Source of the DNA: Colwellia sp. TT2012
Lineage (GTDB): Bacteria > Pseudomonadota > Gammaproteobacteria > Enterobacterales > Alteromonadaceae
Length of the DNA stretch: 64,000 nucleotides
Assembly: GCF_001440345.1 (NCBI RefSeq)
Contig: NZ_LJYX01000006.1
Coordinates: forward strand, 248,001-312,000
Reading direction: 5' to 3'
A program made the translations under genes and the position numbers. Shown piece after piece: positions 1,509-6,504 of the stretch. The notes beneath the pieces were generated by a model. It ran no database searches, had not been told where the DNA came from, and worked only from the letters and a program-made list of their open reading frames with translations. Numbering within the stretch: position 1 is the first letter of the stretch; every line of letters begins with the position of its first letter.

Positions 1509-3848
1509 CTAATATTGATGAAAAGCGTAACCACCGGTTAAATGCCCAACTTGTTCAAAGCCCAGACGCCCTAATGCCTGCGCGGCCAAATGAGAGCGAC
1601 TACCACTGCGACAAATCAGTACCAATGGTACTTGTTTATCATCTTGGTGCTCTTGCACAAACTGCACTAGTCGAGTTAAAGGTACATTGTAGGTGAACTT
1701 TTCATCGTGTTGTAGTGCGTATTCGTGAGGCTCACGGATATCAATTAACTTAATCGTATTCGAGAGTTTCATTGCCTCAGTTAAGCTGGCGCTATCATAT
1801 TCACGCACAGAAACTTTATCTCCAGCACAGATCAAAGCACCACACATAATTTCACTGCCAGTTTGGTCGGTAATATGGGCATCCAGGATGACTTTTTTCT
1901 GGCTAAATTCTTCGCAATTTATCTTATTGTTAAGTACATCGCTAAGTAGCGGGTTACGTGACATTTCCGCGGCCATGTTGGTGGTAAATTCATTGTTATA
2001 ATCGTGACTAGGGCAAATAAGACTCTTTGTACCGATAAGGGTATTTAACAATTGTAAACTGGTAAACATCGCGGCGGCACTACTGGTGTCGAAGTTTGTG
2101 CGGCCAAGGCTGTTCATTAAAATTAAGTCACCGCAAAAAGCATAGAGCACAACTAATTTATCGCTTGAATCAGTAACTGGCTCGCATAGTAATAAGCTTA
2201 TGCTGTCCTCGGTATGCCCAGGTGTAGCGACTTTAAGCAACCACTTATCGCCCAGCGTGAGGTACTGGTATTCATTACCATTAATGTTTGTTGTTGGCGT
2301 GTTTTCTGGCCAGCCTAGTGTGTCAGCTTGTTGCTCGGCTAAGCACGCTTTGGCGATACTGGCACGACAAGAGACATGATCGGCATGGCCATGGCTATCA
2401 ATAATAGCGACTAACGTAAGGCCTTGACAAGTCAGCATGGTTTGCAAGCGATCGGCTACTTCCGGTAAGGGATCGATAACGAGTGCTGACTTGGTTTTGT
2501 GATCGACATATAGCCAGCTACAACTGCCCGCTACTTTGAATTGCACTAAACCCTCTAATGCCTTGTTATCGGTTATTACCTTGCTACCCATGGTCTTTAT
2601 GTCAATGCTATTGGTATCAATAGTCAGGCAACTTTGCCGTAATGCTTGCGCCACAGAGACAATTCGACTACAGGTCTGGTCAACTAGCTCTTGCGTCATG
2701 GCGGGTCCAAACGACATTCTAATTGCCGCCTCACTTTGCCAGGAGGGCAGCCCCATTGCATCTAAGACAAAACTGCGCGTTACCTTAGAGCTACAAGCTG
2801 ATCCTGAACTAACTCGGACATTGGCTGCATCAAATAAATCCATAATTTCTTTCGAGCTAAAGCCAGGGATAGCGAAATTAATGGTGGTTGGCACTGAGTT
2901 TTCAAAACTATGATTAAAAACGATATTAGGGAATGCTTGAATCAATGTTGCCACTATCTGTTGATGGAATAAGTGCAGCGATTTCACTGGCGTAAAGCTA
3001 TGTTCACTTTCGCCGGTGAGCATATCAAATATAACGCTTAAGGCCGCTAACCCAGGTAAATTTTCCGTGCCCGAGCGTAAGCCGCCTTCTTGGCCCCCAC
3101 CAGCAATAACGGGCGTGAATGGCGCGTTGTCTTTAATATAGATAAAACCTATGCCTTTAGGCGCATAAAGTTTGTGGCCACTAAAGGGCGCATAATCAAT
3201 ACTGGTTTGCGCTAAATTCAAGTCTTGTTTACCTAAAGCTTGCACACAATCTACCATCCAAGCAATATTGGTATTATTAGCACGTATGGTTTTGTCTAAT
3301 AGGTTAAGGTCTTGATAGACCCCCGTTTCGTTGTTAACGGCCATGGTACAAATCATCAGGGCGTTAGGGACTTCTTTAGCGATAAAATCCATATCAAGGC
3401 GGCCCATTTTATCTACCGGGATTGCTGTCACTTCGGCGTTAATCTCAAGAATTTCATTCCAATGCTTGAGTGACTCTGGTACCGCCTTATGCTCGGTGGC
3501 ACCGTACAAAAGACAATATTTTTTACTTCTGTTAGCGGTTATCTCAAGGGTCTTTTTGGCCGCAATCAAGGCGGATAGAATTGCTGTTTGAATCCCTTCG
3601 GTAGCGCCACTGGTAAATATAATTTCACCCTCGCCAGCACCAACAATCTGTTTAGCTTGTTGCCTTGCTTTTACCATTATTTGCTGCGCTTGCAGGCCGG
3701 TAATATGACTACTGCTTGGATTGCCAAAAAAAGTTTCCATGGTGGCTAAAGCTGCCGCCGCTGCTTGCGGTAAAACTTGCGTGGTCGCATTGGCATCAAG
3801 ATAAATTAAGCTCAGTGGTTGTTTTACATTGGTAGGTAAATTAGTCAT
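1509..3848 (-). CDS. Cysteine desulfurase - persulfide dioxygenase (ETHE1-like) - rhodanese fusion
   Basis: Three enzymes on one chain; numbering is from the GTG at 3881 (790 residues). Residues 24-415 are a class V aminotransferase fold of the NifS/IscS group, with the PLP lysine in SGHK (K237) and the catalytic cysteine in SGSACSS (C363). Residues about 440-650 are a metallo-beta-lactamase fold with HGHADH (497-502), TPGH (H556), CGD (D585), GRTN (593-596) and PSHDY (H626). This is the persulfide dioxygenase pattern, with Asn where ETHE1 usually has GRTD. Residues about 695-790 are a rhodanese domain with active site CRSGSRS (C757). In these families the steps would be cysteine to alanine plus persulfide, glutathione persulfide oxidation to sulfite, and sulfane sulfur transfer; coupling them is inference. 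I prefer the ATG at 3848 (779 residues), preceded by AGAG, over the GTG at 3881. No signal peptide, so cytoplasmic. An FNR-type box lies upstream. Confidence 0.9.
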   Translation of the reverse strand: MTNLPTNVKQPLSLIYLDANATTQVLPQAAAAALATMETFFGNPSSSHITGLQAQQIMVKARQQAKQIVGAGEGEIIFTSGATEGIQTAILSALIAAKKTLEITANRSKKYCLLYGATEHKAVPESLKHWNEILEINAEVTAIPVDKMGRLDMDFIAKEVPNALMICTMAVNNETGVYQDLNLLDKTIRANNTNIAWMVDCVQALGKQDLNLAQTSIDYAPFSGHKLYAPKGIGFIYIKDNAPFTPVIAGGGQEGGLRSGTENLPGLAALSVIFDMLTGESEHSFTPVKSLHLFHQQIVATLIQAFPNIVFNHSFENSVPTTINFAIPGFSSKEIMDLFDAANVRVSSGSACSSKVTRSFVLDAMGLPSWQSEAAIRMSFGPAMTQELVDQTCSRIVSVAQALRQSCLTIDTNSIDIKTMGSKVITDNKALEGLVQFKVAGSCSWLYVDHKTKSALVIDPLPEVADRLQTMLTCQGLTLVAIIDSHGHADHVSCRASIAKACLAEQQADTLGWPENTPTTNINGNEYQYLTLGDKWLLKVATPGHTEDSISLLLCEPVTDSSDKLVVLYAFCGDLILMNSLGRTNFDTSSAAAMFTSLQLLNTLIGTKSLICPSHDYNNEFTTNMAAEMSRNPLLSDVLNNKINCEEFSQKKVILDAHITDQTGSEIMCGALICAGDKVSVREYDSASLTEAMKLSNTIKLIDIREPHEYALQHDEKFTYNVPLTRLVQFVQEHQDDKQVPLVLICRSGSRSHLAAQALGRLGFEQVGHLTGGYAFHQY

Positions 3849-3990
3849 AAAATTCTCTGGAGTTATGCAGTTAGCTTTCACTGCTTACTAGTCGACTTAA
3901 CGGTGGCGTTGATAGAGAAATTATTTCACGTATTGCTTGGTATATTTTTGCTTACTTAACCTTAATAGAGTAATAATTTGGTGTTCTATT

Positions 3991-5190: not shown

Positions 5191-5580
5191 TTAATCTTTA
5201 AGTTTTTTTATGATTGATGATGAATCAATTAGAGGGTTTCTCGGTACATAGCGCATAATACCCATTTTGTGCGGTAACTTGTACATATGTTCCATGTTAT
5301 CACCGGCAACATGAATATCAATCTTATGTTTTTGGTAAAAACTTGCATCATTATCCGGGGTAAGTGGGGCAACAATTACCTCATCAACACCCTTAATGTT
5401 CCGAATTATTTCACAGCGTTGTTCACAAGAAATAATAGGTGAACGCTTATAAGATTTAACGTCTTCGTCTGAATGTACGCCAACAATAAGGTAGTCGCCA
5501 AACTCTTTTGCTTTTTGTATAACCGATAAATGTCCTACGTGAAACAAATCAAATACGCCACTGGTATATACTCTTTTCAT
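5191..5580 (-). CDS. Small cytidylyltransferase (phosphoethanolamine/glycerol-phosphate type)
   Basis: The 129-residue protein is a complete nucleotidyltransferase domain: N-terminal YTSGVFDLFHVGHL with the CTP-binding H14-x-G-H17, then GVHSDEDVKSYKR, and a C-terminal SSSIIKKL in place of the usual ISTT motif. The family makes CDP-activated head groups (CDP-ethanolamine, CDP-choline, CDP-glycerol); the RYVPRNPLIDSSSII ending looks closest to ethanolamine- or choline-phosphate enzymes, but the substrate cannot be fixed from sequence. It lies 270 bases downstream of a CDP-alcohol phosphatidyltransferase on the same strand, the enzyme type that would use its product. Cytoplasmic. Confidence 0.85.
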   Translation of the reverse strand: MKRVYTSGVFDLFHVGHLSVIQKAKEFGDYLIVGVHSDEDVKSYKRSPIISCEQRCEIIRNIKGVDEVIVAPLTPDNDASFYQKHKIDIHVAGDNMEHMYKLPHKMGIMRYVPRNPLIDSSSIIKKLKD

Positions 5581-5809
5581 CTTTATTACTCCTATACATA
5601 TCGAACATATAACAGATATTTTTGCTATATGTTTTATTAAAATCGTCCGCGCTGCAAACTCACTCTGTGGTGAAAATGTCGGGGGATAGCGAATAGTTCG
5701 CTGTTAAAGATCCATCTCAGTACCTAAACCGTGTTTACTAACTACGGTAACTAAGGGTACTTATTTATTGAATAGCTATGGCTTTAGGCACCACGCATCA
5801 TTATCCTTA

Positions 5810-5840
5810 CCTGAGTGATAGTTAAAAATTATCACTCAGG
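5810..5840. terminator. Hairpin downstream of the CDP-alcohol phosphatidyltransferase gene
   Basis: CCTGAGTGATA (5810-5820) and TATCACTCAGG (5830-5840) form a perfect 11-bp stem with a 9-base loop just past the stop at 5851. No clear T tract follows, so full termination is uncertain. It would separate the gene from the cytidylyltransferase downstream. Confidence 0.45.
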
Positions 5841-5850
5841 TGCAAATATT

Positions 5851-6504
5851 CTAGACTAGTAACCGGCCATAAGCCACAGTGATAAATAAAGTGTATAGAG
5901 CAAGAACATAATACCAACTACCACTGAGTTTTGGTGTTCTTATCGAGGCTACATTGAGAGCGGCTATTACCAGGATGGTAATATAAAGGACGATAGTGAA
6001 CGCCGAAGTCGTGATAAAACTCTCTAACAGAAAAACAAAAACAAGAATGATAGCATTATTATCAGAGGCAAGACCTTGATAGGTCGATTTTCCATCTAAG
6101 CCATAAACATTAAAATAACTTAGTCGTAAGACACAAGCGGCAACAATAATAAAAGCACCGGGGAAAAATATAGGATCATAATTGCCATAGCTCAATAAGA
6201 TAACGGCCGGGCAAACTCCAAAGCTGACAAGGTCGATGAGTGAATCTACTTGTCCACCCACTTGACCTTGTTTAGCCGTTCTATTCTTCATTTTTCGAGC
6301 AATTTTACCATCATTCCAATCAAAAAATACTGCCCAAATTAATCCTATCATCGCGGCAGGGTATATGCCGATCAAGGCAAAGTATAGTGCTAATAATGCT
6401 GAAAAAAGACCAACCAAAGAACAAATGTTAGGTAAGTCAAAGGCAAGTGATAATATCGAAGGAGGTGTTGTCGACGGATTACTATCTGTTTTTACTGATG
6501 GCAT
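5851..6504 (-). CDS. CDP-alcohol phosphatidyltransferase, phosphatidylserine-synthase-like
   Basis: The 217-residue integral membrane protein has about six hydrophobic segments and the family catalytic motif: D65-G66-x2-A69-R70, then G83-x3-D87-x3-D91. The gap between R70 and G83 is 12 residues where the canonical motif has 8. The following SLIDLVSFGVCPA is typical of the CDP-diacylglycerol-serine branch. The family transfers a phosphatidyl or phospho-alcohol group from a CDP donor in the inner membrane. The cytidylyltransferase downstream suggests the pair makes a CDP-head group and transfers it, which is inference. A PLD-type PssA is also in this window (58019-59347). Confidence 0.85.
   Translation of the reverse strand: MPSVKTDSNPSTTPPSILSLAFDLPNICSLVGLFSALLALYFALIGIYPAAMIGLIWAVFFDWNDGKIARKMKNRTAKQGQVGGQVDSLIDLVSFGVCPAVILLSYGNYDPIFFPGAFIIVAACVLRLSYFNVYGLDGKSTYQGLASDNNAIILVFVFLLESFITTSAFTIVLYITILVIAALNVASIRTPKLSGSWYYVLALYTLFITVAYGRLLV

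Follow-up and report, generated by a model that had tools for sequence, protein, structure and literature searches.

Cysteine desulfurase, persulfide dioxygenase and rhodanese domains on one chain in Colwellia and relatives: conserved outer sites around an apparently dispensable dioxygenase

We analyzed a stretch of Colwellia sp. TT2012 DNA of 64,000 nucleotides, referred to here in its entirety as the window. Close to one end of the window, a minus-strand gene that reads as a single open frame without interruption encodes a 779-residue protein composed of a cysteine desulfurase (CD), an ETHE1-like persulfide dioxygenase (PDO) and a rhodanese domain, in that order (Table 1). In the ORF reading of the window an upstream in-frame GTG at position 3881 gives a 790-residue version; the methionine encoded by the ATG is the start of the alignment for many homologues. 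An earlier note on this DNA had described three sulfur enzymes on one chain with their active-site residues present, and on both points it was right: the three parts lie in one frame, are called by Pfam and have matches among PDB sequences, and the residues are in place. The note had left the strand unstated and had numbered the residues on the GTG version while giving the coordinates of the 779-residue version; subtracting 11 yields the numbering used here (K226, C352, H486-G-H488-A-D490-H491, H545, D574, H615 and C746, with GRTN at 582–585). The public record for one copy of the gene carries the label "aminotransferase class V-fold PLP-dependent enzyme".

Table 1 Features of the fusion gene and its surroundings (window coordinates unless a locus is named)
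Feature	Position	Strand	Details
CD-PDO-rhodanese fusion gene	1509..3848	minus	779 aa; ATG 3848 to stop 1509
Cysteine desulfurase domain, group I (NifS/IscS-like)	2634..3812	minus	residues 13-405
PLP lysine	3171-3173	minus	K226 codon
CD catalytic cysteine	2793-2795	minus	C352 codon, in SGSACSS
Persulfide dioxygenase (ETHE1-like) domain	1869..2552	minus	residues 433-660
PDO iron triad	2391-2393; 2214-2216; 2127-2129	minus	H486; H545; D574
GRTN motif	2094-2105	minus	
PDO H615	2004-2006	minus	
Rhodanese domain	1527..1778	minus	residues 691-774
Rhodanese active-site loop CRSGSR	1611-1613	minus	C746
Palindrome GAAATAATTTC	3917..3927		79 bases upstream of ATG; candidate regulator site, weak
FNR-like box TTGATnnnnATCAA	3991..4004		upstream of the fusion; candidate oxygen control, weak
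nqrM-adjoining locus L109	5474-5689		
nqrM-adjoining locus L110	7640-7945		

All three parts of the window protein score above their Pfam cut-offs (Aminotran_5, 187.8 bits against 21.5; Lactamase_B, 25.5 against 22.7; Rhodanese, 37.0 against 22.2), and the rhodanese carries the CxxGxR signature of a sulfurtransferase. Among PDB sequences, the N-terminal part matches NifS-like proteins, IscS and NFS1, and the remainder matches the PDO-rhodanese fusion BpPRF (E 1.7e-23), with H486, H545 and D574 aligned to the 2-His-1-carboxylate iron triads of BpPRF and of 4ysb. For NifS or IscS equivalog status, the protein misses the cut-offs of all NCBIfam desulfurase models among the matches listed (269.9 against 530.75 bits for NifS, TIGR03402; 201.5 against 643.2 for IscS, TIGR02006), and the fusion is ~29–37% identical to stand-alone desulfurases. 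It nonetheless has the marks of a group I desulfurase, and H120, D200 and Q203, which we take to be the PLP-site His, Asp and Gln, occur in 85 of 85 aligned rows. In the PDO, the second-sphere residues H488, D490, H491 and H615 are present together with R583, and a Ser occupies the position of the Thr that precedes the first iron ligand (T56 of AcPDO). An AF2 model built on 40 family members reached a pLDDT of 83.8 and a pTM of 0.80, and the best 50 rows listed from a fold search with it are desulfurases and related PLP enzymes, selenocysteine lyase for example, which confirms the CD part only. We considered and set aside an identity as selenocysteine lyase, which appears in the PDB lists but is not the best match there and has nothing else in its favor.

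The same architecture is found at full length in Colwellia, Shewanella, Pseudoalteromonas and relatives. In a sample of 61 relatives, 17 of 37 same-genus genomes, the window's own included, carry the fusion (E = 0); of 394 genomes sampled evenly across the order, 43 have a match at E <= 1e-100, which in 41 spans almost the full protein. A scan of genome contigs kept 80 of 90 loci, from Colwellia, Paraglaciecola, Pseudoalteromonas, Shewanella, Parashewanella, Arsukibacterium, other relatives and one Pirellulaceae metagenome-assembled genome (MAG). The class sample returned the window's own genome alone (1 of 274), the phylum sample 10 of 398 genomes at E <= 1e-60, and the phylum of the Pirellulaceae MAG the MAG itself alone (1 of 294). 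A match outside the window's order (locus L125 in genome G1244) led to a family referred to here as f204; in the order of G1244, the matches were G1244 and one 37%-identical stand-alone desulfurase-like frame (2 of 200 genomes). Apart from f204, then, the fusion is rare outside its order. Because homologues of full length lie in one frame, several of them in single-contig assemblies, the fusion is due neither to chance nor to a frameshift; that separate genes were joined by an assembly error, or by the sequencing frameshift that the earlier note had raised against its own reading, has in our estimate virtually no chance of being correct. The note had also allowed that many closely related and characterized homologues might exist. 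Many homologues there are, but no characterized CD-PDO-rhodanese chain was found in the literature searched, which comprised papers available in part and few subscription journals.

The copy on the Pirellulaceae MAG contig (L103, 6016-8418) has an intact GRTD motif, and the gene adjoining it bears a planctomycete export motif that is weak and below the Pfam cut-off. Given that motif beside the fusion, a cross-phylum transfer is possible, as is contamination.

We counted the conservation of catalytic residues over 141 aligned members, leaving out L025 (at a contig end) and L171 (interrupted by a run of N). K226 and C352 of the CD and C746 of the rhodanese are kept in 141 of 141, a count that favors a conserved CD, since members were gathered mostly by CD similarity. 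The PDO iron triad, by comparison, is intact in 108 members and decayed in 29, and 4 members lack the whole domain. A function shared by all members therefore cannot be oxidation. The PDO thus appears, from these alignments, to be the dispensable part of the family, with the CD and rhodanese fixed. Loss of the triad follows the branches: it affects all 31 f204 rows (27 remnants and 4 without the domain), whereas 108 of 110 non-f204 rows keep the triad, the exceptions being the alteromonad-side members L109 and L110. One f204 member (L175) retains two of the three iron ligands and is intermediate, and 8 of the 108 intact-triad members are missing either a second-sphere residue or the arginine of GRTD. 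At E 0.01 Pfam gave no rhodanese call for L110, and the rhodanese of L174 scores beneath the Pfam cut-off; both proteins have the CxxGxR cysteine.

In f204, judged betaproteobacterial from class and G+C content, 49 of 175 genomes match, G1244 included, and 32 of the 49 loci were analyzed (L125, L148-L158 and L160-L179). Their proteins are 510–842 residues long. Four of them (L160-L163, 510–534 residues) are plain CD-rhodanese proteins without a PDO domain, and the 511-residue L160 shares 53% identity with the window protein in the CD and 35% in the rhodanese. With E values up to 0.01, Pfam made no metallo-beta-lactamase call in L148, L166, L173, L174 and L175, nor in L109 and L110 of the alteromonad side, and it found no PDO domain between the CD and rhodanese of L160 and L163. 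Because a profile of the middle region of 24 f204 members (L173-L175 left out) matched the intact PDO profile with a probability of 100 (E 2e-41), against ~1 for the rhodanese control in the same comparison, this region is, as judged from its profile, a dioxygenase remnant. That the remnants match the PDO profile yet lack the ligands also gives the direction of change, which is loss of the PDO. The four members without the domain are most simply deletions, and it is possible that some of them never had one. Downstream of the fusion in 8 of 12 f204 loci with long flanks there is also a very large open frame on the same strand (>1,400 codons), which forms one cluster (L184-L190 and L193) and reaches the end of the locus.

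Pairwise comparisons of substitution rates are consistent with relaxed constraint on the decayed PDO. We obtained omega for 18 of 20 planned pairs (two lost a sequence on duplicate removal), several of them with saturated dS. Within the PDO domain, omega was 0.07–0.20 in five of nine intact pairs, the other four having saturated dS, and 0.20–0.60 in nine decayed pairs. The relaxation is moderate, because CD omega is also higher in decayed pairs (0.04–0.24) than in intact pairs (0.02–0.11). A tree of 87 CD domains requires at least three changes of the intact-PDO label, two of which are forced by starred branches. A root taken from IscS/NifS-like outgroups fell on a PDO-less row and was rejected; the outgroup branches, at 2–3 changes per column, are too long for the root to be trusted.

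The earlier note had also pointed out that the GRTD motif of ETHE1-like enzymes is GRTN here and had suggested an altered binding of thiols. The substitution is real: with N585 in place of Asp, the window copy lacks the Arg-Asp pair of GRTD. It is not peculiar to this copy. Position 585 is Asn in 92 of 112 aligned rows, and thus an established state of one large clade, and Asp in 15, which include the more divergent L103 and L114; 89 of the 92 Asn rows share the pattern of the window protein at all twelve sites checked. Asn at 585 therefore looks like a derived trait of a clade rather than a lesion of the window copy. An effect on activity is plausible: the Asp of AcPDO at this position is paired with the Arg, the D141A variant retains 1.5% of activity, and activity is low or absent in alanine variants of D61, H62, H171, R139 and D141, according to the accessible part of that study (PMC6060420). 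In the portions of the literature available to the search, no report of an Asn form at this Asp was found. These data bear on the view that the window PDO is already weakened or inactive through GRTN, leaving the protein as a CD-rhodanese sulfur donor like its f204 relatives. The 1.5% activity of D141A and the frequency of PDO decay in the family speak for this view, which we nevertheless consider improbable, given the spread of Asn through a clade of one uniform pattern and an omega that is low, unlike that of decayed copies.

Immediately upstream of the fusion in 29 of 32 f204 loci (all but L173, L174 and L175) lies a divergent gene for an AsnC-type regulator. The same divergent regulator occurs at three alteromonad loci with an intact PDO (L141-L143), that is, at 3 of 137 non-f204 loci, a set that is partly redundant and in which 11 loci have <1 kb upstream; none of the three is in the window's genus. 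In pairwise comparisons the L184 and L142 regulators each share 50% identity with E. coli DecR, as against 39% and 35% with Lrp, and by tblastn those of L141, L143 and L125 are 44–48% identical to DecR and 34–37% to Lrp. The comparison with DecR covered these five; the other f204 regulators are 74–94% identical to that of L184. The best PDB match of the regulator is the AsnC-family protein 3i4p, ahead of Lrp. DecR (also CyuR or YbaO) is described, in the part of the source at hand, as a cysteine sensor that activates genes for cysteine desulfidase (PMC9040844). Because a DecR-like regulator adjoins its relatives, the window protein fits a cysteine-consuming route, with the caveat for cysteine control that the strong linkage sits in the branch whose PDO is decayed or absent. 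A homologue of the L142 regulator, with 76% identity, is encoded in the window genome away from the fusion.

Two palindromes upstream of the fusion are weak leads as regulatory sites. The exact sequence GAAATAATTTC occurs once in the window, where 0.08 copies are expected and 7 of 100 shuffled versions contain a copy. With one mismatch allowed, 10 of 111 upstream regions on the alteromonad side have it (shuffles: mean 1.2, maximum 5), several of them from close relatives, whereas 0 of 34 f204 upstream regions do, and it does not occur at the DecR-like gene of the window genome itself (L198). It is thus rare across the family, and in the regulator-linked L142 and L143 it lies 55–73 bases before the start of the match. 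The second palindrome, TTGATnnnnATCAA, was called as an FNR-like box on what we take to be the FNR consensus; allowing one mismatch, 16 of 111 upstream regions carry it (shuffles: mean 3.3, maximum 8) and 0 of 34 from f204 do, and the window contains one further exact copy at another place. Seven Shewanella members have a similar, one-mismatch box 95–115 bases ahead of the point where their match begins.

On the alteromonad side, genes picked and clustered automatically gave no neighbor whose place is fixed across genera, and so no conserved operon; closer inspection covered a subset of the clusters and genes. The two alteromonad members with a decayed PDO, L109 and L110, lie directly downstream of nqrM, which follows an nqrF-like gene, with apbE present as well in L109. 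By this position just 3' of nqrM they may be linked to Na+-NQR maturation. Elsewhere in the window, a cytidylyltransferase-like gene beside a CDP-alcohol phosphatidyltransferase called by Pfam (5191-6504) may form a small lipid or polyol-phosphate pair that has no relation to the fusion. Elsewhere in the genome (L181, 1279-2241, G000:C103) there is a separate PDO-like gene of 320 residues, which matches the dioxygenase half of Blh (NF040641) below the cut-off and whose motifs presumably resemble those of a type II PDO.

The neighborhoods raise the possibility that the fusion is a sulfur donor for biosynthesis (Fe-S clusters, lipoate, NQR maturation or tRNA), with the PDO as a safety valve against persulfide build-up. 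Such a role would accord with invariant CD and rhodanese core residues around an expendable PDO, with nqrM at L109 and L110, lipB-lipA-like genes after L114, a TusA-like gene two genes before L102 (below the Pfam cut-off) and an annotated one before H3, and a cysteine-synthase-like PALP gene before L085; the CD-rhodanese protein of Pseudorhodoferax, moreover, hands its sulfur to a protein acceptor in the available account (PMC8931425). Each sulfur-related neighbor is, however, a single case, the one neighbor found in both f204 and the alteromonad order is the DecR-like regulator, and the window genome has another desulfurase match (C1:546417, 34% identical), so that we hold a biosynthetic role to be unlikely, although worth keeping in mind. 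Still less probable, in our judgment, is that the protein serves sulfide or persulfide detoxification, with the PDO-rhodanese half acting on glutathione persulfide of any source, as in BpPRF or CstB, and the CD as an accessory. That half does match BpPRF over its length, and CstB is described as countering sulfide stress in the accessible text (PMC12856154); yet it is the CD and not the PDO that is most conserved, an argument that rests on conservation, and the genome has its separate PDO-like gene.

From the domains, catalytic residues, conservation, decay and regulator linkage in relatives, all read from the sequences, we infer the reaction steps, the sequence in which sulfur is handed on, what the protein does in the cell, and control of the window copy by cysteine, as follows. 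The N-terminal CD would convert L-cysteine to alanine with a persulfide on C352. The sulfur would pass from C352 to rhodanese C746, the conserved core relay, and from there to glutathione or another thiol. Where the PDO is intact, as in the window protein, it would use O2 to oxidize the thiol persulfide to sulfite, which the rhodanese could combine with sulfane sulfur to give thiosulfate. In relatives with a decayed or absent PDO, the chain would end at the relay and act as a persulfide donor. The gene would most likely serve to remove surplus cysteine and to keep sulfane sulfur in check with no release of free sulfide, and its expression would respond to cysteine. We give roughly even chances to this reading, in which the protein disposes of cysteine through a core CD-to-rhodanese relay and the PDO is an oxidizing outlet to sulfite or thiosulfate.

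The one-protein route from cysteine to sulfite or thiosulfate proposed in the earlier note survives in part: three intact domains across genera and a DecR-like regulator beside relatives are in line with it, but the PDO is dispensable, and cysteine sulfur may or may not be channeled directly to sulfite. More tentatively, and at somewhat less than even chances, we propose the wider picture of an aerobic one-protein route from cysteine to sulfite or thiosulfate that forms no free sulfide, is tied to a DecR/CyuR-type sensor and is an alternative to CyuA and CdsH, together with a family whose middle enzyme goes from active to pseudo-enzyme to loss between fixed flanking sites. If this is correct, cysteine sulfur would be stripped, carried and oxidized on one chain, avoiding the sulfide released by cysteine desulfidases. 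The series of intact, metal-less and missing PDOs would be a natural control for what the PDO adds, and the family would offer a possible evolutionary origin for CD-rhodanese fusions.

Several known systems resemble parts of this protein; published work is described here from the accessible parts of the sources. The CD shares its fold, PLP lysine and SGSAC-loop cysteine with group I desulfurases of the NifS/IscS type, and differs from them in being fused. PDO-rhodanese fusions are known, as the earlier note had it: BpPRF (PDB 5ve3-5ve5), an ETHE1-like PDO followed by a rhodanese, aligns over both domains of the window protein but has no CD and carries GRTD, whereas the window protein has an N-terminal CD and GRTN, and S. 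aureus CstB is a further such fusion. The order rhodanese-PDO has been reported from cable bacteria (PMC13047784). A CD-rhodanese fusion is known from Pseudorhodoferax sp. Leaf274 (Selles et al. 2022; WP_056898193.1); it is bifunctional, with sulfur proposed to move from Cys334 to Cys466 (PMC8931425); there is biochemical evidence for the CD-to-rhodanese relay (PMC8931425; PMC12319549), and such a fusion has been built into the CyReB cysteine sensor (PMC12319549). Like the window protein it has a CD followed by a rhodanese on one chain; at 54 kDa it is without the dioxygenase that lies between them in the window protein. Its two cysteines occupy positions similar to those of C338 and C479 in L160, and by size, domain order and cysteine placement it is likely a member of this family. 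Cysteine is also consumed in the degradation controlled by CyuR/DecR through CyuA and CdsH (PMC9040844), and a DecR-like regulator adjoins relatives of the fusion; CyuA forms pyruvate, ammonium and sulfide, whereas the fusion is predicted to form alanine and a persulfide. What is new here is a family in which the outer CD and rhodanese sites are fixed while the PDO between them decays or is lost.
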